A stretch of DNA of 64,000 bases, taken from assembly GCF_030296775.1 (NCBI RefSeq), contig NZ_AP027742.1, positions 1,116,001 through 1,180,000 of the forward strand. Direction: 5' to 3'. Shown piece after piece: positions 1-17,754 of this stretch (its first letter is position 1; the number at the start of each line of letters is the position of its first letter). Made by a program: the position numbers and the translations under genes. Source of the stretch: Claveliimonas bilis (GTDB taxonomy: Bacteria > Bacillota > Clostridia > Lachnospirales > Lachnospiraceae). The notes beneath the pieces were generated by a model that was not told the DNA's origin, ran no database searches, and saw only the letters and a list, made by a program, of their open reading frames with translations.

Positions 1-336
1 AAAACTTCGTATGAATTATTGTGGAAAGAATTGAAAAATGCGAATGTCGGGTCGGCTAATATGCTTATGAATGTTATGCGACGCATTTTAGAACATTATT
101 TCATGATTATCGGTGGGATTGATTACGAGAAATGTATCAATCAAATTGAAGGTACAGATAAAATAATTTGTAAGGCGTTGGTTTCTTTTATAAATGATGG
201 TTCACATTCTGTGTTTGAAGATTTAATTTTTACTCCGGACGATGGAGATATAGAAAATTATAAAAGAGTATTTAAATTGGTATTTGAAAAATTAGGTCAT
301 ATCGACCATTACAATATGATGATGAATAAAATTTAA
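1..336 (+). CDS. AAA_13-family ATPase, C-terminal end (partial)
   Basis: Frame 1 is open from the first base to the stop at 334-336, so this is the 3' end of a longer gene. The 111 visible residues contain segments such as YELLWKELKNAN, ALVSFINDGSHSVFEDL and HIDHYNMMM, which I recognise as the tail of AAA_13 ATPases. That group includes the anticodon nucleases RloC and PrrC, and uncharacterised mobile-element ATPases. The Walker motifs and any nuclease domain would lie upstream, outside the window. It probably belongs to the element's defence cargo. The family call rests on memory of conserved tail motifs. Confidence 0.6.
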   Translation, partial: KTSYELLWKELKNANVGSANMLMNVMRRILEHYFMIIGGIDYEKCINQIEGTDKIICKALVSFINDGSHSVFEDLIFTPDDGDIENYKRVFKLVFEKLGHIDHYNMMMNKI

Positions 337-427
337 ATTGGCAATTTATTCGATAACATAGTGGCATGATTCGCTTAGACAAAGATGAATAGGAAGAGGT
401 AATGAAAGCTACGAAATGATTGACACT

Positions 428-470
428 GCAGTACATACCTGTTACACTTCGTGTAACAGGTATGTACTGC
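428..470. repeat. Perfect 20-bp palindrome with 3-nt loop
   Basis: Bases 428-447 are exactly complementary to 451-470, leaving only TTC as the loop. The core reads GTTACAC/GTGTAAC. It lies 91 bases after the AAA gene and just before the AbiF RNA promoter. No T-tract follows directly, although TTCTTTTTTG occurs about 20 bases on, so it may serve as a terminator for the upstream gene, or it may be a mobile-element end or protein site. Confidence 0.75.
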
Positions 471-512
471 AAGAAATAGTGGGAGCTTGTATTCTTTTTT
501 GAAAAAGGAATC

Positions 513-540
513 TTGACAGCCGCAATAAAAGTTGTATAAT
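513..540 (+). promoter_or_regulatory. Consensus sigma-A promoter for the AbiF-associated RNA
   Basis: A perfect -35 box TTGACA (513-518) and a perfect -10 box TATAAT (535-540) are separated by 16 bases. Transcription should start near 547, directly in front of the first structured RNA and 69 bases before the AbiF start codon. Such a strong promoter suits constitutive production of a small RNA. Confidence 0.8.
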
Positions 541-546
541 GATAGT

Positions 547-601
547 AACAGAACCCACCACGCCTCTGATTTTCATGCGCAACCCGGTGGGACTTTTTCA
601 T
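547..601 (+). ncRNA. Candidate abiF-type structured RNA, upstream copy
   Basis: Transcription from the consensus promoter would give a short RNA whose outer stem pairs CCCACC (554-559) with GGTGGG (586-591), followed by a T-rich end ACTTTTTC. Inside is a short CGC/GCG hairpin (561-563 with 577-579) and then a single-stranded CAACCC before the closing strand. AbiF-family genes are known to be stably associated with a conserved upstream noncoding RNA, described as an RNA antitoxin. Position, promoter and fold fit that role. A second RNA of like design lies after the gene at 1551-1597. Confidence 0.6.
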
Positions 602-615
602 TTATGGGGTGTTTT

Positions 616-1524
616 ATGTATCAATATCCAAAACAAATATTAACAATGGCACAGCAGGTGCAATCATATATTGATGCGGGAATGGTAATTACTTCTCGTG
701 CGGACGTAGAAAAGGCATTAAAGTCAGTTGGATTTTATCGTTTGCGTGGATATTCGTTCCATTTATATGATAATGCTTCAAAGAAGTATGTTCCGGGAAC
801 AAAGTTTGAAGATATTTTAAAGTTGTATCAATTTGATCAGGAATTATCTGCATTGATTTTTTCAATGATTTCCAAGATTGAAGTGGCTTTGAGAGTGCGA
901 TTGGTGGAAGCGTTGCTTATACACGGAGAACCACTTGTTTTGCAGGATTCATCGATTTTTAAAGAGAAAAAACTGTATTGGCAGAATATGTCTACAGTAG
1001 CGTCAGAAATTGCTCGCTCTAATGATGTGTTTATCAAACATAATTTTGACAATCATGATGGAGAGGTGCCTGTATGGGCAGCTGTTGAAGTTCTTTCATT
1101 TGGTACGCTATCGAAAATAATTAAGAATTTGAAAACAGGTACTGGAAGTTCGTATTCTATATTAGCGGCTAATTACCAATATAAATCGAAAAAAGGAAAT
1201 TTGGTAAATCCATCACAGAAAATGCTTGCTTCATGGATACAGGGAGTTTCAGTATTGCGTAATATGTGTGCTCATAATTCCAGAATTTACAATCGCACAA
1301 TACATACGACACCGGAAATTCTGGATGCAGATAAAATCTCACCACCGCCGGCACATAACGGTTTGTATCAAATTCTATTGGCGATGAAGTATTTGCGTTC
1401 ATCCGATGAGGAGTGGACAGTATTTGTAGATGCTTTCGATAAGCTGATTCAAAATAATATCAGTGTGGTCAGTCTTACAGCAATGAATCTTCCAGCGGAT
1501 TGGAAAGTACATTTAAGTGTATAA
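616..1524 (+). CDS. abiF: AbiF/Abi_2 family abortive infection protein (HEPN ribonuclease-type toxin)
   Basis: The 302-residue protein has the Abi_2 N-terminal signature (VGFYRLRGYSF near residue 40) and a HEPN-type R-x4-H motif, RNMCAH, at residues 215-220. HEPN domains with this motif are usually metal-independent ribonucleases. AbiD/AbiF proteins stop phage growth by abortive infection, and the AbiF branch has been described as a toxin held by a noncoding RNA and as related to the ancestors of Cas13. I chose the ATG at 616 because a GGGGTG ribosome binding site precedes it and because earlier in-frame starts lie inside the upstream RNA. The gene is AT-rich and is part of the mobile element's cargo. 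Confidence 0.85.
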   Translation: MYQYPKQILTMAQQVQSYIDAGMVITSRADVEKALKSVGFYRLRGYSFHLYDNASKKYVPGTKFEDILKLYQFDQELSALIFSMISKIEVALRVRLVEALLIHGEPLVLQDSSIFKEKKLYWQNMSTVASEIARSNDVFIKHNFDNHDGEVPVWAAVEVLSFGTLSKIIKNLKTGTGSSYSILAANYQYKSKKGNLVNPSQKMLASWIQGVSVLRNMCAHNSRIYNRTIHTTPEILDADKISPPPAHNGLYQILLAMKYLRSSDEEWTVFVDAFDKLIQNNISVVSLTAMNLPADWKVHLSV

Positions 1525-1550
1525 ATGAAGTAGAGCTGCATAAAATAGTA

Positions 1551-1597
1551 AAGCAGACCTAACCAAGCATTGTTATGCTCAAACCGGTTAGGCTTTC
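1551..1597 (+). ncRNA. Second abiF-type structured RNA, downstream copy
   Basis: An outer 7-bp stem pairs CCTAACC (1558-1564) with GGTTAGG (1586-1592) and encloses an AGCAT/ATGCT hairpin (1566-1570 with 1575-1579), then CAAACC (1580-1585). The layout of outer stem, inner hairpin, CAA(A/C)CC and closing GG strand matches the upstream RNA at 547-601, while the stem bases differ in a way that keeps the pairing. A weak -10-like TAAAAT is at 1541-1546. It may be independently transcribed or cut from the abiF 3' end. Confidence 0.5.
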
Positions 1598-1637
1598 GGC
1601 GGAGTGTTACGATAAGCACTTCGCCACTTTTATTTTG
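1598..1637 (+). terminator. Terminator after abiF and its downstream RNA
   Basis: GGCGGAGTG (1599-1607) pairs with CACTTCGCC (1617-1625), with one G-T wobble, and is followed by ACTTTTATTTT. It would end transcription of abiF and the second RNA. Confidence 0.7.
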
Positions 1638-1696
1638 TGGAAATTAAATGGAATTTGGGCTTCGTCTGTTTGTAATATTTATTTTGCTGAATAATC

Positions 1697-1705
1697 TGAT
1701 ATAAT
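1697..1705 (+). promoter_or_regulatory. Extended -10 promoter for the two-gene HNH unit
   Basis: TGA-TATAAT (1697-1705) is an extended -10 element 38 bases before the start codon at 1743. No good -35 box is present at the expected distance, which is usual for extended -10 promoters. Confidence 0.5.
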
Positions 1706-1742
1706 ATTCGTAGATAAATTGTGCTATAGAAGGAGCAGATAC

Positions 1743-2660
1743 ATGAGAAGAAGTGATGGACGAGAAACTTGGCATAGATTATTAGAATGGGATAAAGGAC
1801 AAGCACCGGCAGAACGCTTGGCTGCGGTAGTGCTATTTAGTGATGGATTTAGAAATGTTGATCCGTCTCATCCATTAGGTGGCAGAGATGGGCTGAAAGA
1901 TATGATTTTAACTAATAATGGAACTAAGTGGATAGGAGCAGTTTATTTTCCAAGAGGACAGCAGAGTTTTTCTGATATTAAATCAAAATTCGAACACGAT
2001 TTACAAGGAGTGAAACAGAACGAGGCAAATGGCATTGTGTTTGTTACAAATCAGGAGTTAAGATTATCGGAACGAAAAGAATTAACGGAAATCGATGATG
2101 ATATAGATGTACAAATCTATCATTTGGAGAGACTCGCAACTTTGTTGAATTCACCGGCAAATTATGGGGTTCGTATGGAATTTCTGGAAATTGAAATGAA
2201 CAAAGAGGAACAGTTGGCCTTTTTTGCAAATCAGAATCAGAAAATATCTAATATTGAAGCCACATTAGAAAAATTGACCATAGGCTTAGAAGAATATAAA
2301 TTAAGTAAGAGACTTCCAGAAGCAAAACAGGTAGAAAATCTTTTTGAAAGTGAGGAAGAAGAATTTTATGAAGAAGATGAACCACGTAGCATAGATGAAA
2401 TAGTTGATGCTGTGGGGGGGTTTCTTGATAAGATATGGTTTGATAGGCATTTGTCTTTGAGATATCGAATCGAAACGGGGATGGAAGCCGTTGATCCGGA
2501 AATATGGAAAGGTGCGTTAAATTCTGCCCAGAAAGTAATCGATAAATACGGAGAAGAAAATCTTGGACCGTATAGTGATTTTGAATGGGGCATGCTTAAT
2601 GGTAAACTTTCTGCTCTCAGATGGGTTTTAGGCGACGACTGGGATATGTTAGATACATAA
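1743..2660 (+). CDS. Uncharacterised protein, possible nuclease-like N-domain, first gene of HNH-ATPase pair
   Basis: I do not recognise a named family for this 305-residue protein. The N-terminal 150 residues (GGRDGLKDMIL, WIGAVYFPRG, KFEHDLQ, GIVFVTNQ) resemble domains fused to many defence proteins and could be a PD-(D/E)XK-type nuclease fold, but the usual (E/Q)xK pair is not evident, so activity is uncertain. A probable coiled coil follows (residues about 160-185), then an acidic stretch, EEEEFYEEDE, and a C-terminal block ending WGMLNGKLSALRWVLGDDWDMLDT-like, split here only for length. The ATG at 1743 follows an AAGGAG site. The next gene starts 21 bases later, so the two are one operon. 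Confidence 0.6.
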   Translation: MRRSDGRETWHRLLEWDKGQAPAERLAAVVLFSDGFRNVDPSHPLGGRDGLKDMILTNNGTKWIGAVYFPRGQQSFSDIKSKFEHDLQGVKQNEANGIVFVTNQELRLSERKELTEIDDDIDVQIYHLERLATLLNSPANYGVRMEFLEIEMNKEEQLAFFANQNQKISNIEATLEKLTIGLEEYKLSKRLPEAKQVENLFESEEEEFYEEDEPRSIDEIVDAVGGFLDKIWFDRHLSLRYRIETGMEAVDPEIWKGALNSAQKVIDKYGEENLGPYSDFEWGMLNGKLSALRWVLGDDWDMLDT

Positions 2661-2681
2661 TAAGTGAAAAGGGGTGAACGT

Positions 2682-3767
2682 ATGGGATTTCCAACAAGTG
2701 TTGCAGATGACGTACTGGTTCGTTGTGGCAGACATTGCTGTTTGTGTGGAAAGTATGTAGGTCAAAAAATTGAATTGCATCACATAAAGCAAGTTGCTGA
2801 TGGCGGAGAAGATACTGCGGATAATTGTATTCCTCTGTGCTTTGATTGTCATGCAGAGGTAAAGGCTTATAATCCGCATCATCCAAAAGGGAGAAAATTT
2901 ACCGAAAAAGAGTTAAAGGGACATAGAGATAAGTGCTATGAAAGATATTCGTTAAAAAATAATGATAGTTCAGCATTAAATTCTGAAAAGCCGAAAAGTA
3001 TATTTCCACCTCCTGAGAATACGTCATTGATACGTTGGGGTTACCCAGAGCAGGATAAATTGTGTCCTGTTTTTCCGGGTAATATAGTATTGGTAGCTGG
3101 TTGTACCGGTACGAAGAAAAGTACATATTTGCACCATGTTGTCAATCAGAATATTATATCTGGTCATAGAGTAGTATATTGCTGTATGAAGGACAAACCT
3201 TTTGATGTAAGCATTGAAATAATTAGTGAAAATGCACATGTAAATGTGGAGTATATAAAGCGTGGAATGGTTACAGAAGAAGATTGGGAAAAATTAACAA
3301 GTAGCCAAGTGGCTTCGAATAGTGAAAATTTGGCACTGATTCCGTATAATGAGATTTCTGAAAGCAATAAGATTTTGGATATTGTTGAAAATTCAGGAGC
3401 GGAAATAGTTGTAATTGACGATTTCAATGGTATTATGTTGGATGATGCTGATTCAGTTGAGCGTTTTCTTTATAAATTAAAGAATATTGCTGCACAAAGC
3501 CAAACTGTTGTATTTGTAATTTATAACCTTAGTATACCGAAACAAAGGATTGATATGAGACCGATGCTGAGAGATTTTCCATCCGATAGCTATTACCGCC
3601 TCTTCGATATTATTCAGTTATTGTATAAACCGGATTTGTTTTTTTATGATGAAGATGATAAGGAAAGATTAGAGATTATTATTGTAAAAGGAGCTTTGAA
3701 GGTTCCTTACACAATAAAGTTATTAGTTCCAGATAAAATTACAGGAGTTTTTTCGTTGGCTGAGTAA
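2682..3767 (+). CDS. HNH endonuclease fused to RecA/DnaB-type ATPase
   Basis: This 361-residue protein joins two domains. Residues about 10-60 form an HNH nuclease with a zinc site: CCLC, then ELHHI, DNCIPLC and FDCH. Residues about 110-355 look like a RecA/DnaB-type ATPase, with a Walker A-like GCTGTKKS (near 140) and a Walker B AEIVVIDDFN (near 243). The Walker A is odd: the residue before the conserved lysine is lysine instead of glycine. The ATG at 2682 follows AAAAGGGGTG. It is co-transcribed with the preceding uncharacterised gene. Nuclease plus DNA-dependent motor in a cargo region suggests anti-phage defence, which is inference. Confidence 0.7.
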   Translation: MGFPTSVADDVLVRCGRHCCLCGKYVGQKIELHHIKQVADGGEDTADNCIPLCFDCHAEVKAYNPHHPKGRKFTEKELKGHRDKCYERYSLKNNDSSALNSEKPKSIFPPPENTSLIRWGYPEQDKLCPVFPGNIVLVAGCTGTKKSTYLHHVVNQNIISGHRVVYCCMKDKPFDVSIEIISENAHVNVEYIKRGMVTEEDWEKLTSSQVASNSENLALIPYNEISESNKILDIVENSGAEIVVIDDFNGIMLDDADSVERFLYKLKNIAAQSQTVVFVIYNLSIPKQRIDMRPMLRDFPSDSYYRLFDIIQLLYKPDLFFYDEDDKERLEIIIVKGALKVPYTIKLLVPDKITGVFSLAE

Positions 3768-3774
3768 ATAAGAG

Positions 3775-3817
3775 CGCCTTTGTTTCCAGATTGTAGTGGG
3801 AACAAAGGCGTTTTTTC
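3775..3817. terminator. Bidirectional terminator between convergent genes
   Basis: CGCCTTTGTT (3775-3784) pairs perfectly with AACAAAGGCG (3801-3810), followed by TTTTTT on the plus strand. It ends the HNH-ATPase operon and may also serve the XRE gene that converges from the right. Confidence 0.85.
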
Positions 3818-4632
3818 TATTTCTTACCTTTTTTACGATTCGGCAGAGCCTTTAACAGCTTTGACCTTTTAAACACATCCTTCATAACCTTATGTTCATC
3901 TACAGAAAGGTGGTCAAATGGAATCTGCATTTCGTCACAGAAGAAATGCCAGAATTCCTCGATAGGGTTGCTTTTGAATTTGAGGGTCTGCAAGAAACGC
4001 TGCACCTTTTTGTCGTTGGACATAGGCCTTTCGATTGGTGTGGATTCGGCAGCGTGTTCGTGATTTTCACGGATAGTGCGGATAATATTGTCCCAATCGC
4101 TGTGAATGGTATGGAAGAAGTATTCTTCCTCCTGGATATGCGAGCTTTCCAGAACTTTTAGATACAGGTCATTGGCATCCGGATTCTTCTGTTGAATGAT
4201 TTGTAGGCGGACAGCATCCAGCCAGTCATTCATATTTTTAATCTGCATGGTAGCAATGCCGTCAACATAAATTTCGGTATCAGTCATCAACTTTATAAAA
4301 TCTGGATGTTTGATGATTTCGCATAAGAGCCTGTTATTGAAATGTCCACTTTTCAAGAGGTCTATAGTTTCATCATCCAACATCAACTCATCTATTTCGG
4401 TGGATGTGGATTCTCTAACTTCGGTGTTTCCAACAAGCCATTCCAAAGAGACACCATAATAGTCAGCCAGACTGTTCAGTATAGCAATATTATATTCCTT
4501 ATTTTCTTTGTTTTCATACTTACTTAATGTAGAACCGGTTATTCCAACAGCAGCCGCAACAATATCTTGGGTCAGTTTGCGTTCTTTTCTTAAATCTTCT
4601 AATTTTTCTTGTATTGATAATTGAGTTTTCAT
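3817..4632 (-). CDS. XRE-family transcriptional regulator
   Basis: The 271-residue protein has an N-terminal helix-turn-helix (residues about 7-62: LEDLRKERKLTQDIVAAAVG, ITGSTLSKYENKE, LADYYGVSLEWLVG) of the Cro/C1 type. The remaining 200 residues are helical and polar with no domain I recognise. It ends in a basic tail, NRKKGKK. It is divergent from the small gene at 5023, and the space between contains two inverted repeats that could be its operators. It probably controls that gene, its own expression, or functions of the mobile element. Confidence 0.8.
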   Translation of the reverse strand: MKTQLSIQEKLEDLRKERKLTQDIVAAAVGITGSTLSKYENKENKEYNIAILNSLADYYGVSLEWLVGNTEVRESTSTEIDELMLDDETIDLLKSGHFNNRLLCEIIKHPDFIKLMTDTEIYVDGIATMQIKNMNDWLDAVRLQIIQQKNPDANDLYLKVLESSHIQEEEYFFHTIHSDWDNIIRTIRENHEHAAESTPIERPMSNDKKVQRFLQTLKFKSNPIEEFWHFFCDEMQIPFDHLSVDEHKVMKDVFKRSKLLKALPNRKKGKK

Positions 4633-5022
4633 AGGTATCCTCCTGATGCAGATATTCTACCATATTTCAGCATAAATTTACAATGTGCCTCGGGTTTTCC
4701 AATCGGAAAAAACGGGGCATTTTTGCGGGAATTTTCGACCATGGAAATAATCCGGGAATTTTGATTTTTCGGTGTATGATGTAGCCAGTTCAGAGATGAA
4801 CGAAAAATTGAATGACCGTCCGAGATGAGATAAACCGCCATGATCATAAAGGGAGCGCTTCCGTAAGGGAGACTGGACAGCACCGCACAGGGGATATGCC
4901 TCCAAGGAAACATCAAGGGTAGAACGGCAGAATCCTGTTTGTGGAATTGCAAGTACTATTGCATTTCCACATTACATAGAGATTTGACAATCTCTAAACA
5001 AAAAATAAGAAGGAGAAAACAG
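4633..5022. promoter_or_regulatory. Divergent control region with two inverted repeats
   Basis: This 390-base gap separates the XRE gene from the small gene at 5023. It holds an inverted repeat with 12-base arms and one mismatch (4941-4952 GTGGAATTGCAA with 4959-4970) and a second perfect 7-bp one (AGAGATT 4978-4984 with AATCTCT 4989-4995). Both lie within 85 bases of the start at 5023, where an operator would act. The left part (4633-4930) holds nothing I can name. Confidence 0.5.
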
Positions 5023-5331
5023 ATGAGATTATCTAAGTATGAGAAAGAAACTATTATTTTGACCAGTGAGGGTGATGACACTGTCCAGATTTACACTTTC
5101 AACGCATCGTTGAAACGTAGGCTTGCGGAATATGCAGAAAAGTATCCGCATCTGGCAAGGTTGGATAAATGGACAGCCGAAGGCAGCGTGACCTATGTTT
5201 TGGATAAATCCAGAGTGTCTATTCGTTTGCTGTCGCCACTTTCAGAGGAAAGACGGAAAGTTTTCAGTGAGTGTGGTAAAAAATACGGCATGAATGCCAG
5301 CAGAAGATTATTGGAACAAGTTGCAACTTAA
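5023..5331 (+). CDS. Small conserved mobile-element protein, unknown function
   Basis: The 102-residue soluble protein begins MRLSKYEKETIILTSEGDD and has the central pattern YTFNASLKRRLAEYAEKYP. I believe similar small proteins are frequent next to XRE regulators in Firmicutes mobile elements, but I know no function. An AAGGAG site precedes the ATG at 5023. It is divergent from the XRE regulator and probably under its control. No transmembrane segment or catalytic motif is visible. Confidence 0.7.
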   Translation: MRLSKYEKETIILTSEGDDTVQIYTFNASLKRRLAEYAEKYPHLARLDKWTAEGSVTYVLDKSRVSIRLLSPLSEERRKVFSECGKKYGMNASRRLLEQVAT

Positions 5332-5442
5332 TGTTGTTTTACAGGCGATATTCATTCAAAATGCCAGTTTCAGAGCTGGTATTTTGTAATGCTTATATAA
5401 CAGCAAGGTAAAATATCAGGTGTAATTCGACAATTCAAATAG

Positions 5443-6091
<649 letters not shown>

Positions 6092-6093
<2 letters not shown>

Positions 6094-6247
6094 ACAGGTA
6101 TTTTTACAGGAATGTGTACCTTTTCGACACCGGAAAAATACGATTTGATGCTCCCCAGAAAGCCTTTAAATATCTGGAAAAACGCTTATTTTTGTGGTAT
6201 GATTTAAGTTAATGAAAAAAACAGGCATTTTACAGAAAGGTACACAT
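6092..6247. repeat. Direct and inverted repeats downstream of the recombinase, possible res site
   Basis: A 12-base sequence ATGTGTACCTTT (6112-6123) recurs in perfect inverted form at 6236-6247. In addition, AAACAGG(T/C)ATTTT with a following ACAG occurs directly at 6092 and again near 6219. Repeated sub-sites spanning about 150 bases beside a resolvase gene are what a res site looks like. The same stretch also holds the promoter region of the helicase gene. Confidence 0.4.
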
Positions 6248-6287
6248 TTTGGAAAGTGCCGTTCGAGATAACACAGGAGGAAACATC

Positions 6288-9200
6288 ATGGTTCACACAG
6301 ATTTAAAATTTTTTACGAATGAGCCGGAAAGAGACTTATACAGCCGCTTTGCAGCCATTCTGAAAAGTAATACGCAATTCTTTGATGTTCTGGTTGGTTA
6401 TTTCAGAGCCAGCGGTTTTTTCAAAATGTACGAAGCTCTGGAACAAGTAGAGAAAATCAGAATATTGGTTGGTCTGAATGTCGATAGATATACGGTTAAA
6501 ATCATAGACCGTGTAAATGATGAAGCCAAATATGCTGCTATTTCAACTGCTGATGGCAAAGAGATTATTGCAGAAGAAATTGAAAAAGAGTTTGAAACAG
6601 CAGCAAGCTCTGCGCAGGTGGAAAAAGGTGTCCGAGTTTTTATGGATTGGCTGAAATCCGGAAAACTGGAAATGCGTATGTATACCGAAGCACCAATTCA
6701 TGCAAAGGTTTATATCATGCGTAAAGATCAGGAGAAAGTACCGGACACATTTGGAAGTGTAATTACTGGTTCCAGTAACTTTTCTGAAGCTGGTTTGGTA
6801 AATAATCTTGAATTTAACGTGGAACTAAAAGATTATGCAGATGTCAAATTTGCATTAGATAAATTTGAGGAACTGTGGGCACAGGGTACAGATATTCGTG
6901 ACACTTATATTGAAGCTGTGGAACAGCACACATGGATGAGGGATGATATTACTCCTTATCAGCTGTATTTGAAGACACTGTATGAATTCTTTAAAGAAGA
7001 AATCAATGCAGATAAAGAGAATTTTGAAACGCTGCTCCCGGAAGGATATATGCGTTTGCAGTATCAGATAGATGCGGTAACACAGGCAAGACAGAAGCTG
7101 GATGCGTATAACGGTGTATTTATTTCAGACGTTGTAGGTCTTGGTAAAACATATATCTGTGCCATGCTTGCCAATAGCTTTAACAGAAATGCATACAAGT
7201 TAATTGTATGTCCTCCGGTATTGGTTGATTACTGGAGAAGCGTTTTGCAGGAATTTGACGTTGCTCGCTGTGATGTGGAATCCCTTGGTAAGTTGGACAA
7301 GATTATTGCCAGAGGAACTGATAAGTACTCCTATGTATTTGTTGATGAAGCACATCGTTTCCGTAACAGCGGCACCGAAGCCTTTACAGAATTGCATCAG
7401 ATTTGCCGTGATAAAAAGGTAATTCTGATTTCTGCGACACCAATCAACAACTATACCAGTGACGTAGAAAATCAGATCTATCTGTTTCAGGCAAAGCAGA
7501 GCGGCACAATCAATGGCATTAAAAATATCGAAGGATTTTTCCGTGGGCTGAATGCAAAACTTGCGAAGAAACCAAAAGGTTCAGCAGCATATATGGAGCA
7601 ACTTCGAGAAAACTCGGAAATTATCCGTGACAAGCTGATTCGAGAAGTTATGATTCGTCGTACCAGAAGTGAAATTCAGCAATACTACGCAGAGGACCTT
7701 GCAAAACAGGGATTGACTTTCCCGAAAGCAGGTAGCCCGGAGAAAATTATTTATTCCTTTGATGAAGAGACAGATGATGCATTCTCTCAAACTATCAATA
7801 TCATCAAGGACTTCAAGTATGCCCGTTATACCCCGTTGCTTTATCTGAAAGATAAAAAGAAGTATGCAACCATGCTTGCAGCACAACGCAACATGGGCGG
7901 ATTTATGAAAGGTATCCTTGTGAAACGTCTGGAAAGCAGTTTTTATGCGTTCCGTAAGACTTTGGAGCGTTTCATTGAATCCTATGAGAAATTTATTGAA
8001 ATGACCAAGACTGGAAAAATCTATATCAGCAAGAAAGTAAATGTGTATGACCTTTTGGATGATGGAAATACACAGAAGCTGATGTATCTGATTGAACAGC
8101 AGGATGTCATGGAATTTGAAACAAAAGAATTTTCTTCACAGTTCTTTCGTGATTTGCAAGCAGATTTGGCACAACTGAAATCCATGCAGTTTATCTGGTC
8201 ATTGATTGGCAATGATCCAAAACTGAATGAGTTTAAGCGAAATCTTACAACAAATCCGTTGATGAAAGGCAAAAAGGCGATAGTCTTTACTGAATCTACG
8301 GAAACTGCACAGTATCTGTATGAAGAATTAAAAGAAATCTACGGAGAAAGAATTATTTATTTCAGCGGTCAGAGCAGTGCTGCATTGAAAGTTGAAATTG
8401 AAGATAGTTTCAATCCGAAATTTAAGAATAAAAACAACGATAAATATGACCTTCTTATCACTACGGACGTATTGGCAGAAGGTATCAACCTGCATCGTGC
8501 GAATGTTCTTGTGAACTATGATCTTCCTTGGAACCCAACCCGCATCATGCAGCGTGTAGGTCGTATCAATCGTGTTGGTACAGAGTACGACCGCATTTAT
8601 GTATTTAACTTCTTCCCAACTGCACAGAGCAAGAAACAGATGCCATTAGAAGAACGTATTTTGGAAAAATTACAGGCTTTCCACGATACGCTTGGCGAAG
8701 ACTTCAAATATCTGTCTGATGATGAAGAAGTATCTTCCAAAAAGCTGTTCTCGGATTTGACCTCTGATTTGGATGGTGAGGAAGAAAGTACTAATCCTGA
8801 ATTGGCTTATCTGGCTATTATCCGCCAGATTCGTGACAATGACCCGAAACTGTTTTCGATGATTAAGCGTTTGCCGAAAAAAGCAAAGGCAGGAAAGGCT
8901 TCTGAAAAGGTATCAGAAGATTCTACAGTTACTTTTATCCGTCAGGGCGCATTAAAAACATTTTTTATCAGCTCTGAAGCTGAAACTAAACAGCTGTCCT
9001 TTATGCAGGCGATTGATTTGATTAAGGCAGAACCGGATGATGCAAAAGTCAGTGTCTCAAGTAAGTTTTATGAACACTTCGACAGTAACAGCACCGCTTT
9101 TGACCAGATGCTTGTGGCAGAGGAAGAAGTTTCTACGGAAAAAGTAATGGTTGCCGGAAATGATGCGAAAATCATTCGTTTGCTGAAAGCAATGAAAACG

Positions 9201-9461
9201 GAACCACGCCTTACCGATGATCAGGAGCAGACGATTGAAAAATTGATTATGCTCTGGGAAAACGGCGAGATTCCGGCAAAGGTTTCGAAGGATGTCATGA
9301 AAAAGAGCAAAGTTGTTGGAGATGTTCTGGAACTTTACTATGAAATCCTGAAATTAGTACCTCCAACTTACTTTGAGGAACGCAAGAGCCAGAAAACACA
9401 GGTGGATGGAGAAAAGCAGATTGTTCTCTCCTGCTATCTGAAAACGGGAGGTACACGATAA
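6288..9461 (+). CDS. PLD-nuclease-domain SNF2-type helicase (restriction-like system subunit)
   Basis: This 1057-residue protein starts with a phospholipase-D-like domain: IHAKVYIM near residue 136 and ITGSSNFSEAGL about 25 residues on, one HKD motif of the kind that works as a dimer nuclease. A superfamily 2 helicase core follows: Walker A DVVGLGKTYI (281), DEAHRFRN (352), ISATPINN (380), TTDVLAEGINL and QRVGRINRVG (about 755). The C-terminal 250 residues are unassigned. The ATG at 6288 follows CAGGAGG. The stop abuts the methyltransferase start, so the two are translated together and likely form a DNA-translocating restriction complex. The layout resembles a split type ISP enzyme; the exact type is unknown. 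Confidence 0.85.
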   Translation: MVHTDLKFFTNEPERDLYSRFAAILKSNTQFFDVLVGYFRASGFFKMYEALEQVEKIRILVGLNVDRYTVKIIDRVNDEAKYAAISTADGKEIIAEEIEKEFETAASSAQVEKGVRVFMDWLKSGKLEMRMYTEAPIHAKVYIMRKDQEKVPDTFGSVITGSSNFSEAGLVNNLEFNVELKDYADVKFALDKFEELWAQGTDIRDTYIEAVEQHTWMRDDITPYQLYLKTLYEFFKEEINADKENFETLLPEGYMRLQYQIDAVTQARQKLDAYNGVFISDVVGLGKTYICAMLANSFNRNAYKLIVCPPVLVDYWRSVLQEFDVARCDVESLGKLDKIIARGTDKYSYVFVDEAHRFRNSGTEAFTELHQICRDKKVILISATPINNYTSDVENQIYLFQAKQSGTINGIKNIEGFFRGLNAKLAKKPKGSAAYMEQLRENSEIIRDKLIREVMIRRTRSEIQQYYAEDLAKQGLTFPKAGSPEKIIYSFDEETDDAFSQTINIIKDFKYARYTPLLYLKDKKKYATMLAAQRNMGGFMKGILVKRLESSFYAFRKTLERFIESYEKFIEMTKTGKIYISKKVNVYDLLDDGNTQKLMYLIEQQDVMEFETKEFSSQFFRDLQADLAQLKSMQFIWSLIGNDPKLNEFKRNLTTNPLMKGKKAIVFTESTETAQYLYEELKEIYGERIIYFSGQSSAALKVEIEDSFNPKFKNKNNDKYDLLITTDVLAEGINLHRANVLVNYDLPWNPTRIMQRVGRINRVGTEYDRIYVFNFFPTAQSKKQMPLEERILEKLQAFHDTLGEDFKYLSDDEEVSSKKLFSDLTSDLDGEEESTNPELAYLAIIRQIRDNDPKLFSMIKRLPKKAKAGKASEKVSEDSTVTFIRQGALKTFFISSEAETKQLSFMQAIDLIKAEPDDAKVSVSSKFYEHFDSNSTAFDQMLVAEEEVSTEKVMVAGNDAKIIRLLKAMKTEPRLTDDQEQTIEKLIMLWENGEIPAKVSKDVMKKSKVVGDVLELYYEILKLVPPTYFEERKSQKTQVDGEKQIVLSCYLKTGGTR

Positions 9462-12400
9462 ATGAATGCTGTTGTTAAAAAGATAGAAACAATTCTGAAA
9501 AGTCCGTATGATACAAAGAATTATGTGGATTTGATTCGAGAAATATTCCCGAAGGTCAGCATGGTGTCACCGGACAAGTTCAGAAAAGAATTTACGAATT
9601 TTTCATCCCATATTGAAGGTTCTATTCATGTGGGCAATTATAAAACGCCAGACAAAAAGAATATCATTATCATGGCAGTGCAGCTGAAAAATGCAGGGTA
9701 CGTTGAAAATTCCAGAAGTACTCAGCGTAGCTATGCCAAAAAACTGATTGAAAATGCTAATGCAGACGCTGCGTTCATTGCTTTCTATACAGAAGGTGAG
9801 CCGAAATGGAGATTGTCTTTTGTTCGTCTCGATTATGAAATGAAAATCGAGAACGGACGTCTGAAGACAACAGAAAATCTGACTCCGGCAAAAAGATATT
9901 CTTATCTGGTAGGCGAAAATGAACCTTGCCATACAGCAATCAGTCGATTTGAACGATTTATCATTGACAGCATGGCAGACCCGGAACACCCTACACTGGA
10001 TGATCTGGAAAATGCGTTCAGTGTTGAAAAGGTTACAGATGAGTTTTTCAAACTGTATTGCGAGAAATTCCATCAGCTGCGTGAAAAACTGGAAGAAAAT
10101 GAAGATTTCCGTATCGAAGCGCAGCAGCACAATTTCACTTCTGCACAGTTTGCCAAAAAACTGATGGGACAGATTGTATTCCTGTATTTCTTACAGAAAA
10201 AAGGTTGGCTGGGCGTAGGCGCATGGCCTAACACTTTGAACGAAAAAGAATACAAGAATGCTTATTATGCCCGTGGAGCAAAATCCAGAGAACTGATTCC
10301 GATGGTATATCGCCCTGTTGGGGATGGTACATATCGTATTTCCAGTGCTGGACTAAACAGCATCAGTGATGAGGACGAAGCCGTTCTTGCTATGTGTGTA
10401 AAGGGTAAGCCTTGGGGCAGTGGCCCTCACAATTTCATGCGCAAATTGTTTGAAATTGCAGAAAAGAAGAACCAGAATTTCTTTGATGAATTACTGGAAC
10501 CATTATTCTATGATGCATTGAATGTAAACCGTGGAGAACAGGGGTATTGTCCGGCTCTGCATTGCAGAATTCCATTCCTGTCCGGCGGTCTGTTTGAACC
10601 AATTGACGGATATGATTGGGAACACAATAATTTCAATATTCCGAATGAAGTGTTTTCCAATGCTGCGACCAAAGGTCGTGAAGCAGATGGTATTCTGGAT
10701 ATTTTCGACAGATATAACTTTACCATGAGCGAAGATGAACCGATGGAACGTGAAGTTGCTATCGACCCTGAAATGTTGGGTAAAGTATTTGAAAACTTGC
10801 TGGAAGTAAACGATAGAAAATCCAAAGGTGCTTTCTACACACCTCGTGAAATCGTGCATTATATGTGTCAGGAAAGCTTGATAAACTATCTGACCAATAC
10901 TTTGCAGATTGAAGAAGAAGCAATCCGTGAGTTTATTCTGTACGGTGACTTTATGAAAGATGAAGATACTGTAAAAGAGAAACGTCAGGGTAATGGCGGT
11001 ATGTATATTTCCGAAAGCCTGTTCAAGCTGGATGCAGACGGAAAAGTTGTTGTAGACAGACTGAAAGATGTGGATGAAGCATTGAAGAATGTCCGTGTTG
11101 CTGATCCGGCGGTAGGTTCTGGAGCATTCCCGCTTGGTATGTTGAATGAGATTGTCCGTGCAAGACAGAATATTTCTGCTTATATGGCAATTACAATGAA
11201 TGCATATGATACCAGACTGATGTATCAGATGGAGCGTTCACCGCACAATCTGAAATATGAAACTATCAAGAATTGTATTTTCGCAGCAGATATTGTACCA
11301 TCTGCGGTAGATATTGCACAGCTTCGTTTGTGGCTGTCGCTGGTAATTGATGATGAGATCAATCCAAATGCACAGAGTGCGTTGGATGGTCATAAAAATC
11401 CATTGCCACTTCCAAACTTGGAAAGCAATATCCTCTGCGGTAACAGTTTGATTGATGAGTTTGAGGGAACCAGACTGATTAAAGAAAGTGAATTATTTGG
11501 GGACAGCACTTATCAGCTGGATATGAACCATTCCCGTTTTGAATCTATTGTCAGTGCATTGATTGATAAACAGAATGAGTTGTTCCATTGTGAAGATACA
11601 GAAAAGAAAAAGCAACTGAAAGATGAAATCGAATCTCTGCGAGATATGGTTATCCTTTCACAGTTGGAGGGATGTGGTTCTGATAAAATCCAGAGATACC
11701 ACGAGAGCAAACGAAGGGCGTCTAAGCCGTATGTACTCTGGCAGTTAGATTTTGCAAGAGTATTCCGTGAAAAAGGTGGTTTTGATATTGTAATTGGAAA
11801 TCCACCGTATGTTGATTCAGAAGAAATGACACGAAGCATGCCAGAACAACGTGAAATTTACACTAAAAAGTATTCTTGCGCAAAAGGTAACTGGGATTTG
11901 TTTGTTTTGTTCATAGAAAAAGGAATGGATTTATTGGCAGAAAACAAAACAATATCTTATATCGTACCAAATAAGTTGATATCTGCTCCATATACAGAAG
12001 CATTGAGAAAAAAGATGGCAAAAAATCGAGTTATTGAGATTCGAGATTATTCCAATGTAAATGTTTTCAAAGAAGCTGCGGTATATCCAGTTGTGTTCCG
12101 TGTAGAAATTAGTAATAACAGAACACCTGTTAAGATGGATGTTATGGATGGAATGGAAATGGTTGGAAATCAGAATACTATATCGCCAGAGAAGTTTTAT
12201 GCAGATATAAACTGGGATAAATATTTTAATACCTCTGCAGAAGCATTGAGCATTGTTGATAAAATGGCAAAATTTCCAATATTGAGTTCCATTGCTGATG
12301 TAAATGGTGCAGCAACTGTTGGTGAAGCCTATCTTGTAAAAGAGTTTATGTATGACGATGATGGGAATGATGATTCTGTTATGAAATTTATCAATACAGG

Positions 12401-12950
12401 TGGAATTGATAAATATAAATCGTTTTATGGTATTGAATATATACGTTATCTCAAAGGTAAATATATGTATCCCGTAGTAAAAGTTGCTGACCTTAAGAAT
12501 ATGTCAGTTAAGCGTTTTAACGAAAGTCAAAGTGAAAAAATAATCATTGGTGGAATGAATAAAGTTTTGGAATGCTTTTATGATGATGGTAATTATTTGG
12601 CAGGAAAATCTACTACTATAGTTTATAATAATCCATACTTGAAAGTTATTACAGCTATATTAAATAGTACATTGATGTCCTTCTATTATGCTACATTCTA
12701 TAACTCAATGTCTCTTGCGGGTGGTTTTTACAGAATTGGTGCACCACAAATCAAAGCATTGCCTATAGCGTTACCAGATGATGATGTTACCATTGGAACT
12801 CTTGAAAATTTAGTGGACAAAGTACAAAAATTATTAAAATCATTACAAGAATCTGATAGAGAAGTCCAAAATGTTTTGAAACAAATAGATAACATTGTTT
12901 ATAAACTCTATGGGCTGACTGATAGCGAGATTTCATGTGTAGAAAATTAA
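9462..12950 (+). CDS. Eco57I-type adenine DNA methyltransferase / specificity protein
   Basis: The 1162-residue protein has an N-terminal domain (about 1-170; KWRLSFVRLDYE) typical of large type IIG-like enzymes. A gamma-class N6-adenine methyltransferase core follows, with motif I VADPAVGSGAFPLGML (about 545) and motif IV IGNPPYV (about 780). A TaqI-like target-recognition region fills the last 350 residues. I see no clear nuclease motif in the N-terminus, so cleavage may come from the PLD domain of the upstream helicase. Base composition drops sharply after about 11,830, just after NPPY, suggesting that the recognition domain was exchanged. The start codon follows the helicase stop with no gap. 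Confidence 0.9.
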   Translation: MNAVVKKIETILKSPYDTKNYVDLIREIFPKVSMVSPDKFRKEFTNFSSHIEGSIHVGNYKTPDKKNIIIMAVQLKNAGYVENSRSTQRSYAKKLIENANADAAFIAFYTEGEPKWRLSFVRLDYEMKIENGRLKTTENLTPAKRYSYLVGENEPCHTAISRFERFIIDSMADPEHPTLDDLENAFSVEKVTDEFFKLYCEKFHQLREKLEENEDFRIEAQQHNFTSAQFAKKLMGQIVFLYFLQKKGWLGVGAWPNTLNEKEYKNAYYARGAKSRELIPMVYRPVGDGTYRISSAGLNSISDEDEAVLAMCVKGKPWGSGPHNFMRKLFEIAEKKNQNFFDELLEPLFYDALNVNRGEQGYCPALHCRIPFLSGGLFEPIDGYDWEHNNFNIPNEVFSNAATKGREADGILDIFDRYNFTMSEDEPMEREVAIDPEMLGKVFENLLEVNDRKSKGAFYTPREIVHYMCQESLINYLTNTLQIEEEAIREFILYGDFMKDEDTVKEKRQGNGGMYISESLFKLDADGKVVVDRLKDVDEALKNVRVADPAVGSGAFPLGMLNEIVRARQNISAYMAITMNAYDTRLMYQMERSPHNLKYETIKNCIFAADIVPSAVDIAQLRLWLSLVIDDEINPNAQSALDGHKNPLPLPNLESNILCGNSLIDEFEGTRLIKESELFGDSTYQLDMNHSRFESIVSALIDKQNELFHCEDTEKKKQLKDEIESLRDMVILSQLEGCGSDKIQRYHESKRRASKPYVLWQLDFARVFREKGGFDIVIGNPPYVDSEEMTRSMPEQREIYTKKYSCAKGNWDLFVLFIEKGMDLLAENKTISYIVPNKLISAPYTEALRKKMAKNRVIEIRDYSNVNVFKEAAVYPVVFRVEISNNRTPVKMDVMDGMEMVGNQNTISPEKFYADINWDKYFNTSAEALSIVDKMAKFPILSSIADVNGAATVGEAYLVKEFMYDDDGNDDSVMKFINTGGIDKYKSFYGIEYIRYLKGKYMYPVVKVADLKNMSVKRFNESQSEKIIIGGMNKVLECFYDDGNYLAGKSTTIVYNNPYLKVITAILNSTLMSFYYATFYNSMSLAGGFYRIGAPQIKALPIALPDDDVTIGTLENLVDKVQKLLKSLQESDREVQNVLKQIDNIVYKLYGLTDSEISCVEN
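11830..12950 (+). other. AT-rich recognition-domain segment of the methyltransferase
   Basis: From about 11,830 to the gene's end, the DNA is near one-third GC by eye, with many AAA, TTT and ATA codons, whereas the first two-thirds of the gene are clearly richer in GC. The change falls right after the catalytic NPPY motif, where the DNA target-recognition domain begins. This is the signature of a swapped specificity module. Confidence 0.6.
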
Positions 12951-12963
12951 CAGAGGTGAACGG

Positions 12964-13272
12964 ATGGAGATTGAAGTAATTGCAAAAGGAAGAAATATGT
13001 GTTATGATGCCGTAGGCATCTACGATGGAAAGGGGCTTACTGTATTAAAAGGAAGTAGAATATCAGCCACTGTGGCGAATAAAATGAATCCAGTTGCTGT
13101 GAAATTAAGAGAGAGCAAAGATACAGTCGATGATGATTTTGTATTGAAAAGAGATGTGACATTTAGAAGTTCTTCTACAGCAGCGTCATTTGTTACTGGA
13201 AGTATAGCCAATGGTATGAGAGTCTGGAAATTAAAAGACGGAAAGCCATTGGGCAGTATACAGGAAAAATAA
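12964..13272 (+). CDS. DUF4357-domain small protein
   Basis: The C-terminal half of this 102-residue protein carries the DUF4357 pattern FRSSSTAASFVTGSIANG followed by WKLKDGKPLG. The N-terminal half (GIYDGKGLTVLKGSRIS) resembles a second related unit. DUF4357 domains often occur at the ends of nucleases and methyltransferases or near restriction systems; their role is unknown. The gene begins 14 bases after the methyltransferase stop, behind an AGAGGTGAA site. I infer that it is the third member of the operon, perhaps a DNA-binding accessory factor or a control protein. Confidence 0.75.
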   Translation: MEIEVIAKGRNMCYDAVGIYDGKGLTVLKGSRISATVANKMNPVAVKLRESKDTVDDDFVLKRDVTFRSSSTAASFVTGSIANGMRVWKLKDGKPLGSIQEK

Positions 13273-13296
13273 GATACATAAATGACCAGGTCAAAG

Positions 13297-13330
13297 GCGA
13301 TCAACCGTAAAAAGTTGGTCGCTTTTGTTT
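13297..13330 (+). terminator. Terminator of the helicase-methyltransferase operon
   Basis: GCGATCAAC (13297-13305) pairs with GTTGGTCGC (13314-13322), with one wobble pair, followed by TTTTGTTTT. It closes the three-gene operon 24 bases after the DUF4357 stop. Confidence 0.8.
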
Positions 13331-13339
13331 TGCTCATTT

Positions 13340-13645
13340 GCAAAATTAAATTGCCGTGGCAATTTACAAATCTCGTATGAAGGTACCGGCATACGAGAAC
13401 AGGCGGTGATAGTTCACGATGTATGTGAATGGTCATCGTCTGAAATTTTCTAAGAAGGCTCCAGTGGAGCGTTCTTAGAAAACGGAGAAACTGTGAGAAC
13501 CAACTGGCCAGTGGTTTGAAACAGATTATCCGGCAGGAGTACAGAGGGCGCAGCTCTTTGTGCAAGGGTACAGGGAATGCAGTATCCCTGTGCGGGTCAA
13601 GGGCGGCAGCCTTGCCCAGTCAGTGGCGTTTCGCCACTTAGTACT
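13340..13645. other. Hairpin cluster upstream of the relaxase: candidate transfer origin (oriT)
   Basis: About 300 noncoding bases contain at least six inverted repeats. These are TAAATTGCC/GGCAATTTA (13347-13366), TCTCGTATG/CATACGAGA (13371-13398), a two-part stem TTCTAAGAA plus GCTCC (13448-13480), ACTGGCCAGT (13503-13512), ACAGGGA/TCCCTGT (13570-13591), CAAGG/CCTTG with outer GGG/CCC (13594-13617), and AGTGGCG/CGCCACT with loop TTT (13622-13638). Relaxase genes usually sit beside their oriT, which consists of such repeats around a nick site. The nick position cannot be read from the sequence alone. Confidence 0.55.
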
Positions 13646-13720
13646 GGGTATTACCTGCGCATAAATGAAGCAGGACAGCAGCAGAGCTGCTTCGATTTCC
13701 TTGACAACACTCAAAAAGAA

Positions 13721-14956
13721 ATGGAGGAAAAGCCTTTGAGGTTGACACGACACAATGGTCGTTCCGGTAAAAATGGTGCTTACAATCCGAAGCATAATGA
13801 CCGTAGGTTTGATTTGGAAAACAGTGAACACATTGATGCGGAACGAGCGAAAAGAAATATTTATTGGGACTGTTATCGTGGAATCACAACTTCCGATAAT
13901 CGTAATGCAGATGCCGAACAGGATTTTTCTTTTGAAAAAGTTGAGCAGATGTATTACACCGCCCAATATGGCGATTTCATTTTCTTTCAAAATGAGAGAA
14001 ATATAAAGAACAGACATCCGGAGAGGAACAGAACCGTGGAGGACTTGCTGAAAAATAAAAAGACCTGTCCAGAAGAAACCATTTATCAGATTGGCACAGT
14101 AGAAGAATCCGTATCACCGGAAATTCTGTTGCAGATTGCAAATGATTTCTTTGGAGAAATGGAAAGCAGGTTTGGCACTCATGTTCACATTCTGAACTGG
14201 GCATTGCACTTGGATGAGGGTACTCCCCACATTCAGGAACGTCATGTATTTGATTGTGAAAATCAATATGGCGAGCTTTGTCCCCAACAGGAAAAGGCAT
14301 TGGAGGAACTGGGAATACCGCTTCCCAATCCGACTAAGCCGAAGGGCAGACACAATAATCGCAAGCAGACATTCGATGCCATGTGCAGAGAATTGTTATT
14401 TGAAATTTGCGAGCGTTATGGTTTGCATCTGGATCGTGAGCCAATCTACGGTGGAAAAGCTTATCTGGAGAAAAATGATTATATCATCGAAAAGCAAAAG
14501 CAGGTCATAGCAGAAAAGGAACAGGCACTTTCAGAAATCACAATGAAACTGGAGGATGCAGAATCTTTGGTGGAAGAAATTGCGGATACTGCCTATGAGA
14601 AAGCCTGTGAGGTAATTGTGGAAACGGTTTTTGCAGAAACACAGAAACAAGATTTGGAGACTGTAGCGAATTATCAGAAGTGGATCACAGAAGAAAGTAC
14701 TGTTCCGGCTGATAAAAAATCGGCTATCAGTAAATCCCTGGATGCCCTGCAAAACAAAATGAAGAAAACGGCGGACAAGCTTCTGAATAAAGTTTTGACT
14801 GCATTGAAGCTTCCGACAGTCAAAGAAAAGAACAAGGCTGTGGTAAAGGAAAAAGCAAAAGAATCGTTACTTGCGAAGTTGCAGCGTAATAAAGAACTTG
14901 TGAAAAAGGATGGTGATTCGGATAAGAAGATCAAACAAAAGAATATGGAACGCTAA
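13721..14956 (+). CDS. MobV-family relaxase (Mob/Pre plasmid recombination enzyme)
   Basis: Residues near the N-terminus (LRLTRHNGRSGKNG, then KHNDR) match the MobV motif I region, and HLDEGTPHIQERH near residue 163 is the histidine-rich metal-binding motif. MobV relaxases nick DNA at oriT and lead one strand into the recipient. The C-terminal 180 residues are charged, probably coiled coil. I placed the start at ATG 13721, giving 411 residues. The frame is open back to 13577, but that stretch is made of hairpins and its translation (cysteine- and proline-rich) does not resemble a relaxase. The ribosome binding site before 13721 is weak. Confidence 0.8.
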   Translation: MEEKPLRLTRHNGRSGKNGAYNPKHNDRRFDLENSEHIDAERAKRNIYWDCYRGITTSDNRNADAEQDFSFEKVEQMYYTAQYGDFIFFQNERNIKNRHPERNRTVEDLLKNKKTCPEETIYQIGTVEESVSPEILLQIANDFFGEMESRFGTHVHILNWALHLDEGTPHIQERHVFDCENQYGELCPQQEKALEELGIPLPNPTKPKGRHNNRKQTFDAMCRELLFEICERYGLHLDREPIYGGKAYLEKNDYIIEKQKQVIAEKEQALSEITMKLEDAESLVEEIADTAYEKACEVIVETVFAETQKQDLETVANYQKWITEESTVPADKKSAISKSLDALQNKMKKTADKLLNKVLTALKLPTVKEKNKAVVKEKAKESLLAKLQRNKELVKKDGDSDKKIKQKNMER

Positions 14957-14998
14957 CAGGCACTTGTCATTTTTATCAGAAATGTCAGGTGCTTTTTC
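14957..14998 (+). terminator. Terminator after the relaxase
   Basis: GCACTTGTCAT (about 14962-14972) is complementary to ATGTCAGGTGC (about 14982-14992), with two mismatched positions, followed by TTTTTC. It lies directly after the relaxase stop and ends before the primase gene. Confidence 0.6.
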
Positions 14999-15015
14999 TA
15001 TGAGAGGACTTAGCC

Positions 15016-15633
15016 ATGAATGTATTTGATGCAGTTAAGCAATCTGTCACAACCAGACAGGCTGCGGAAATGTACGGATTAAGAATCCGTAGAAATAACA
15101 TGGCATCTTGTCCCTTTCACAATGACAGAACTCCCAGCATGAAAGTGGACAAGCGTTTTCATTGTTTCGGGTGCGGAGCTGATGGCGATGTGATTGATTT
15201 TGTATCAAGGCTTTATGGTATCTCAAGTCTGAAAGCGGCACAAAAGACAGCTTCAGACTTTGGAATTTCTTATGACAGTAAGCCTGTAAAAACAAAACCA
15301 AAGAAAGCGGTATGCAAAAAATCAGATGTGCAGATCTATGCAGAAGCCGAGCAGCGTTGCTTTAAAGTTCTGTCAGACTACTATCATCTTCTGAAAAAGC
15401 GGGAAAAAGATTATGCTCCCAACATGGAAGATGAAATATGGCACCCGCTGTTTGTGGAAGCCTTACAGAAAAAATCGCATCTGGAATATCTCTTGGATAT
15501 TCTGGTGTTTGGAGAAATAGAGGAAAAAGCATTGCTTGTGATGGAATATGGGAAGGAGGTGGCATCACTTGAACAGCGAATTTCAGAATTTATCTGTCGA
15601 GAAGCAAAAACAGGTATTGGAAACAGCCAGTGA
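15016..15633 (+). CDS. CHC2 zinc-finger primase-like protein
   Basis: The N-terminal 80 residues form a DnaG-type CHC2 zinc finger: CPFHNDRTPSMKV and FHCFGCGADGDVIDFV supply the cysteine and histidine ligands. No Toprim catalytic domain follows: the remaining 120 residues are helical and charged. At 205 residues it is far shorter than DnaG. Such short zinc-finger proteins next to a VirE-type ATPase are typical of integrative element replication modules, where they presumably help start replication after excision or transfer. Its 3' end overlaps the VirE gene by 65 bases. Confidence 0.85.
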   Translation: MNVFDAVKQSVTTRQAAEMYGLRIRRNNMASCPFHNDRTPSMKVDKRFHCFGCGADGDVIDFVSRLYGISSLKAAQKTASDFGISYDSKPVKTKPKKAVCKKSDVQIYAEAEQRCFKVLSDYYHLLKKREKDYAPNMEDEIWHPLFVEALQKKSHLEYLLDILVFGEIEEKALLVMEYGKEVASLEQRISEFICREAKTGIGNSQ

Positions 15634-16978: not shown

Positions 16979-16984
16979 ATTGTC

Positions 16985-17165
16985 AGTTAAAATGTCATCG
17001 GGTTGTCGATTTGGTTGTCTGGAAAAATCTTTATTTTCCAAGGAGTTTTCTAATCTGACAACCAAAACAACCTATAATTATAAAAAGAATAGAATTAGAA
17101 TAGCAGAGCTTTGTGTTGAGATTTGACAGTTTGTTAAGGTCGGTTGTCGAACTTTGTTGTCATTT
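16985..17165. repeat. Repeated GGTTGTC motifs between VirE and excisionase genes
   Basis: The heptamer GGTTGTC occurs at 17001-17007, 17013-17019 and 17142-17148, in inverse at 17057-17063, and as a six-base version ending at 17161. Four exact copies in about 150 noncoding bases is more than chance suggests. They could be iterons for the replication protein or binding sites for the recombination proteins encoded downstream. Confidence 0.45.
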
Positions 17166-17201
17166 CTCCTTGCAAGGCTCTTTTTACGGAGGTAAGTGAA
17201 A

Positions 17202-17411: not shown

Positions 17412-17417
17412 GTGCCT

Positions 17418-17648: not shown

Positions 17649-17673
17649 AAACGGCAAATACACGATAGATTCG

Positions 17674-17720: not shown

Positions 17721-17754
17721 TATGACAGTTAGGTTGATAGAAAGGAGAAACTGA

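Follow-up and report, generated by a model that had tools for sequence, protein, structure and literature searches.

A DnaB-type motor with replaced catalytic residues that carries an HNH nuclease, and its modular neighbour, in a candidate defence locus of a gut bacterium

Two adjacent genes of a gut bacterium, here called P1 and P2, lie within a cluster of anti-virus genes and, judged by their sequences, resemble a defence unit of a kind not described before. P2 contains HNH and DnaB_C domains with altered motor residues, P1 is modular, both genes bear the marks of purifying selection, and the P1-P2 stretch is found in three genomes. Our preferred reading, held tentatively and at a little short of an even chance, is that the two form an accessory defence unit in which a DnaB-like ring that does not hydrolyse ATP would gate the P2 nuclease, P1 serving as sensor or adaptor. 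Nuclease plus ATPase pairs are already known in defence; if P2 is a gate, or a decoy, bacteria would here have turned their own replication machine into a phage trap.

Results

Organization of the P1-P2 locus

Both open reading frames are present, in tandem on the + strand, in the window, by which we mean the whole 64,000-nucleotide stretch analysed. The features on which the argument draws are these:

1697-1705, + strand: extended -10 promoter element, TGATATAAT, from sequence reading
1743-2660, + strand: P1, 305 aa, from ORF reading
1743-2198, + strand: N-module of P1, predicted restriction-endonuclease-like (PD-(D/E)XK) fold, from AF2 topology, Foldseek and an 11-row alignment
2376-2657, + strand: C-module of P1, three predicted helices, ending ...EWGMLNGKLSALRWVLGDDWDMLDT
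2667-2674, + strand: P2 ribosome-binding site, AAAAGGGG, preceding ATG 2682
2682-3767, + strand: P2, 361 aa, HNH nuclease plus DnaB-type motor
2682-2957, + strand: HNH head of P2 (Pfam HNH)
3000-3764, + strand: P2 motor, DnaB_C/RecA fold with altered active-site residues (Pfam DnaB_C; aligned with 18 DnaB sequences)
3099-3122, + strand: altered Walker A, GCTGTKKS
3770-3815, + strand: intrinsic terminator, fold -27.9 kcal/mol

P1 starts at ATG 1743, with a GGAG ribosome site before it. An earlier note on this DNA had set the start of P2 at GTG 2664; this is less likely than ATG 2682, on which the ribosome site and the homologue starts agree. The N-termini of the P2 homologues (MGFPTS, MGFPTN or MAFSTS) and the GGGG site before ATG 2682 fit this start, making 2682-3767 the better gene model. 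The same note's proposal that the genes have their own promoter and terminator held up: the extended -10 element is identical in three genomes, those of the window and of loci L003 and L004, and the terminator is strong in the window (z -8.6 against shuffles), whereas most of the left arm is absent from L004. The promoter element lacks a good, consensus -35, which is probably why a consensus promoter scan did not list it.

The nuclease and motor of P2

Pfam recognizes HNH (4.3e-7) and, above its cutoff, the RecA-fold domain DnaB_C (3.6e-12) in P2, as expected of the fusion of an HNH nuclease to a RecA/DnaB-type ATPase that the earlier note had described. The HNH core and the zinc cysteines are present, with C19, C22, H34, N48, C53, C56 and H57 invariant in an alignment of eight heads (L008, which has an internal stop, was left out), and judged by its residues the nuclease of P2 is intact. 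PADLOC gave six matches to P2 at E up to 1, weak and partial, the best being mREase_IV (2.5e-6) over the HNH.

Five P2 homologues have both domains: those of the window, L003, L004 (taken as the same contig as G141:C53), L005 and L006. Their motors were compared with 18 DnaB sequences, a non-random set comprising the host copy, seven chosen plasmid copies and L071-L080, the next ten loci after L065 and L070 in a search with L065, several of them near-identical; L085, a split gene, was left out. The aligned columns that we take to be the Glu and finger sites, and the names and roles presumed for H3 and H4, come from our own reading and recall. The glycine preceding the Walker A lysine is K in four of the five P2s, too many copies for a sequencing error, and G in L005. 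The "degenerate Walker A" reported earlier is thus present in most copies, but the term understates the change, since other motor residues are altered in all five: the catalytic Glu, E in 17 of 18 DnaBs, is K; the Arg finger, R in all 18, is A; the H3 Gln, Q in all 18, is N; the H4 Gln, found in 17 of 18, is R; and the position following the Walker B Asp, Y in 17 of 18, is D. Single DnaB rows vary too, one being without the glycine and one without the catalytic Glu and the H4 Gln. Every P2 retains the lysine of Walker A and the Asp of Walker B, and the second Asp of the P2 Walker B (IDD) might take over catalysis. According to PMC8421360, DnaB-type helicases work with a Walker A motif, a catalytic Glu, and fingers of arginine and of lysine; taken by its catalytic Glu, Arg finger and H3 Gln positions, where it has K, A and N, P2 does not read as a DnaB helicase.

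Low dN/dS among the three close copies (0.06-0.13) indicates that both genes are maintained. The values are 0.085-0.100 for P1 (three pairs of three genomes) and 0.062-0.127 for P2 in three pairs with dS under 1; five P2 pairs with dS of 1.6-2.7 gave 0.089-0.182, and two of the ten pairs were saturated. By this measure P1 and P2 are both under purifying selection.

A motor altered in this way could also be a lure. P2 would then keep the surface of DnaB and not its chemistry, and a phage loader or replisome part would bind it mistakenly; in a variant, P2 would mix into DnaB rings. Either way its nuclease would be placed at the phage fork or switched on. The DnaB fold is alignable over its length, the catalytic residues are replaced in all five copies, segments such as T(E)EDW and RPML.D, putative interfaces, are kept in four of the five P2s (L006 differs), and a similarly altered motor occurs under another nuclease head, that of L065. 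On the other side, P2 shows no Pfam match to the DnaB N-terminal domain at E up to 1, the HNH occupying its N-terminus, and it is only 25% identical to the host DnaB; neither a loader nor a phage partner came to light, and a literature search for DnaB or loader decoys in an anti-phage context found none on point. We regard this explanation as improbable. For the gated nuclease that we prefer, ring formation is argued from homology, the AF2 model of P2 being poor (pLDDT 37).

A GIY-YIG counterpart

The L065 protein (G943, same order) is a GIY-YIG nuclease fused to a DnaB motor in which the Glu is replaced by Arg, the H3 Gln by Thr and the Arg finger by Lys, Walker A being normal; its gene sits between type III methyltransferase and restriction endonuclease genes. 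A second, similar GIY-YIG-DnaB protein is present as a truncated open piece at L070 (G861), its Glu replaced by Lys, near an ORF that reads by eye as a cytosine methyltransferase. Identity between P2 and L065 is 24%, as against the 25% between P2 and the host DnaB. In an unrooted tree (260 columns kept, those with more than 50% gaps dropped, and the L070 piece left out) a split with support of 99.9/100 lies between the 18 DnaB rows on one side and L065 and P2 on the other, and the P2 branch is very long; on these sequences L065 and P2 may be one family. The L065 query matched in 189 of 196 genomes, its own included, mostly in ordinary DnaB genes, and because these were matched the search says nothing on how frequent the fusion is.

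A broader proposal, to which we give little credence, would make a family of HNH or GIY-YIG nucleases set on disarmed replicative-helicase motors, acting as decoys or platforms engaged by phage replication; they would cut the invader at its fork, and P1 would be a second, modular sensor.

The modules of P1

P1 matched nothing in PADLOC or NCBIfam, and in Pfam nothing above cutoff. Its AF2 model (mean pLDDT 68) has a predicted alpha-beta-beta-alpha-beta fold, and restriction enzymes and RPB5 lead the fold matches: the Foldseek neighbours include Pol II chain E (RPB5), R.BspD6I, Avs4, MspJI and phage restriction endonucleases, with weak E-values (best 1.1e-3 against the PDB, with TM under 0.35 by query length, and 1.8e-4 against the viral set), and unrelated folds such as MACROD2 are also listed. 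The nuclease-like domain suspected in P1 thus finds backing at the level of predicted fold. The N-module (residues 1-152) has no (D/E)xK in the second core strand: in an alignment of 11 rows, three of them P1s, D49/D53 are kept, A66-V67-Y68 stands where (D/E)xK is expected, and V67 and Y68 are invariant. An invariant lysine at a moved position, K82, is a possible substitute. One relative, L015, weakly matches Mrr_cat (0.097, under cutoff). N-modules with different C-termini occur at L057, L060 and L068 and in the actinobacterial plasmid proteins L014-L016, and of the 392 order genomes searched with the N-module profile four gave a match, counting that of the window and G141.

The C-module, about 94 aa, forms the terminal part of the protein and has no Pfam match in P1 or in seven stand-alone relatives at E up to 0.001. 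It was found in 44 plasmid records and in one other genome among 398 drawn from the whole phylum. Viral contigs gave 22 loci, some of them near-identical, of which 14 have PIN_12 (14 of the 21 relatives scanned), seven are stand-alone and one is P1-like; phage records yielded no relative. A piece of C-module in G264 matches in a frame with stops, and a Methylocystis relative, annotated as DUF4062, has an N-terminus that scores 2e-4, under the DUF4062 cutoff. The module is thereby common to PIN nucleases, P1-type proteins, a DUF4062-like protein and small stand-alone proteins, and its bearers belong to Pseudomonadota, Actinomycetota, Bacteroidota and Bacillota. The P1 model also has a fold match in a 92-residue phage protein of uncharacterised function (E 0.020; TM 0.81 by target length); its size fits a stand-alone C-module, the matched part of P1 being unspecified. 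P1 is, on these alignments, a modular protein whose N- and C-modules are found with different partners elsewhere.

PIN_12 plus C-module genes in L040, L041, L042, L044 and L048 lie beside neighbours common to these prophage-like contigs, where they occupy the place of a cargo (moron) gene. Clustering of 531 neighbouring ORFs showed that C-module loci share neighbours mainly within these five related prophages; one further ORF family is common to L025, L026 and L051, cytosine methyltransferase ORFs join L006, L008 and L013, and the other shared families join two loci each.

Pairing and distribution

P1 adjoins P2 at three of the five P2 loci (window, L003, L004). At L005 and L006 P2 stands without P1, the homology beginning at the P2 start codon, and at L013 a P1 with a broken frame stands without P2 within the 9.5 kb examined. 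Co-occurrence of the pair, as the earlier note envisaged it, is therefore seen at three loci, but the genes are separable, and an obligate pair is ruled out by the solitary copies. The window shares 1560-4234 with L003 and 456-3886 with L004; the DNA common to all three, about 1560-3886, is P1-P2 with the promoter and terminator region. Since the three copies are close (88-93% identity), their pairing counts as the evidence of one lineage, and by its sequence P1-P2 is a recent, retained combination of separable genes, seen in one close set.

Gene order is changed in L003, where the window stretch upstream of AbiD (about -5521 to -1961) comes after P1-P2; it is 96% identical to the window over most of its length, against 88.5% for P1-P2. 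The AbiD leader (window 416-516) is at L003 6448-6548, after the rearranged stretch and near the other end. At L003 2525-3235, the right edge of the shared segment, a chimeric ORF combines a sigma-like N-terminus with the C-terminal half of the window's HTH gene, and is on this composition a recombination scar.

Restriction-modification (R-M) genes were found at three of the five P2 loci, a count to set against how common R-M genes are: a type IIG gene lies about 5.7 kb downstream of P2 in the window and about 1.9 kb downstream in L005, and a C5 methyltransferase gene lies one small ORF upstream of P2 in L006. No R-M gene was seen by eye in the 6.6 kb of L003 and none was recognised in L004, which carries a retron I-C RT-Toprim and a ThsB-like TIR gene. 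Related cytosine methyltransferase ORFs are present at L006 (P2), L008 (HNH head) and L013 (P1).

These arrangements bear on a rival reading in which P2 is a stand-alone restriction-type nuclease or an R-M accessory, and P1 an unrelated neighbour co-travelling in one lineage. That L005 and L006 are without P1 and each near R-M genes, and that the GIY-YIG relative lies inside a type III R-M locus, would suit it; against it, three genomes keep P1-P2 and the shared promoter although the left neighbour differs, and purifying selection acts on both genes. We consider this reading unlikely, if well worth keeping in mind.

Full P2 was found in two of 299 family genomes (two more matched the HNH head only), two of 392 order genomes (three more matched one domain only) and one of 11 genus genomes, the three samples overlapping. 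In G296, a genome of the same species, window 1-19000 had a single match, which lies at 416-961 (with 40 of 62 candidates scored). A phage origin of P2 was considered and rejected: in viral contigs the single-query search came up empty, the P2 profile had one weak match, to the HNH part (L038), and the motor profile none. Four phage records matched P2, all of them Listeria phages, at 24.9% over the DnaB part, and none matched P1; the 17 plasmid records matching P2 were DnaB genes or HNH head only.

So rare and patchy a distribution, together with the HNH heads that have other C-termini (L009, L019, L063, L064), would also be consistent with a selfish or homing-type element, the HNH being a mobile nuclease and the cassette spreading itself without serving host defence. 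Set against this, the window has no Rfam match and hence no catalogued intron family, the two genes form an operon with its own terminator, and a DnaB motor is, to our knowledge, not usual in homing endonucleases; we judge such an origin very unlikely.

Genomic surroundings

The pair had been placed in a defence cargo region, and a PDC-S06 tail, AbiD, a PLD-SNF2 helicase and a type IIG R-M gene do lie around P1-P2. Window 1-336 is the tail of a 727-aa AAA_13-type ATPase (L036, 8154-10337), the PDC-S06 matches coming from the scan of this tail. The AbiD gene (513-1524; PADLOC 4.6e-92) is upstream of P1, and its leader has a 12-of-12 match to a sigma-70 promoter and a CCCACC...GGTGGG hairpin; the leader's fold is no stronger than that of shuffles (z -0.6) and has no Rfam match. 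The hairpin recalls the RNA-controlled AbiF systems (PMC12373285). AbiD as a third member of the unit is unsupported, as AbiD is the immediate left neighbour of P1 in the window and in L004 and not in L003, where the gene itself may lie beyond the end of the contig. Further along, at 6249-12950, the PLD-SNF2 helicase gene abuts the type IIG restriction-methylase gene (9461/9462), the two being likely to form a joint system, and at 15016-15633 a 205-aa ORF, overlapping the next ORF and possibly a remnant, has matches to defence reverse transcriptases (UG29, RT-DnaG-like) in their N-terminal portion.

Discussion

In the mechanism that we tentatively favour, for which we infer the defence function, the trigger, the substrate and the interaction of P1 with P2, P2 would be the effector, an HNH nuclease held on a DnaB-derived RecA-fold ring. 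This ring may still bind nucleotide; without the residues for ATP hydrolysis and movement on DNA, it would have lost hydrolysis and would act as a gate or platform keeping the nuclease off until infection. P1 would be the sensor or adaptor: its restriction-endonuclease-like domain, devoid of (D/E)xK, could bind DNA, and would be joined via a long helix to the small helical C-module, which in other proteins appears coupled to different effectors. We count in favour of this model the parallel altered motors (L065, L070), the R-M neighbours, the unit boundaries and the P1 fold.

As the earlier note had supposed, no named defence system matched P1 or P2 in Pfam, NCBIfam or PADLOC-DB, the last in its 2023 release, with later systems outside its coverage. 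The nearest working analogue is PtuA-PtuB, of Septu and the retron Eco7 effector, in which an ATPase works with an HNH nuclease in anti-phage defence (PMC11555353). P1-P2 likewise combines ATPase and HNH; PtuA and PtuB, however, are separate genes, whereas P2 is a single protein that joins the HNH to a DnaB_C-type motor whose catalytic residues are altered, and PtuA/PtuB models are absent among the PADLOC matches at E up to 1 (none for P1, six for P2). Like DnaB, P2 has a RecA-fold motor (E 3.6e-12) alignable over its length; unlike DnaB, it gives no match to a DnaB N-terminal domain and has the catalytic Glu, the Arg finger and the H3 and H4 Gln replaced in five copies of five. The P2 head resembles type IV enzymes of the EcoKMcrA type, through mREase_IV (2.5e-6, profile 209-256 of 277) and PDB 6ghc (P2 residues 19-67), but P2 has no match to them outside the HNH, after which the motor domain comes next; with the profile match confined to the HNH, no McrA-like modified-base reader joined to it is recognised. 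The head also matches the HNH of IscB, under the curated cutoff. In our literature search we met no account of a nuclease joined to a replicative-helicase motor whose motor residues are lost.

The P1 model has Avs4/Mrr-like and RPB5 folds among its Foldseek neighbours, at weak E-values; P1 differs from these in having no (D/E)xK motif and showing no STAND ATPase. Pfam contains models of effector-associated domains (EADs), and the C-module, unlike EADs, has no Pfam match, nor was a second copy noticed on a neighbouring NTPase gene in the loci read. EADs are nevertheless the nearest analogue concept for the C-module (Kaur et al. 2020, PMC7159879): like them it is a small helical domain placed at the ends of various effectors and also found on its own. 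As a connector still without a name, it could flag many effectors yet to be described.
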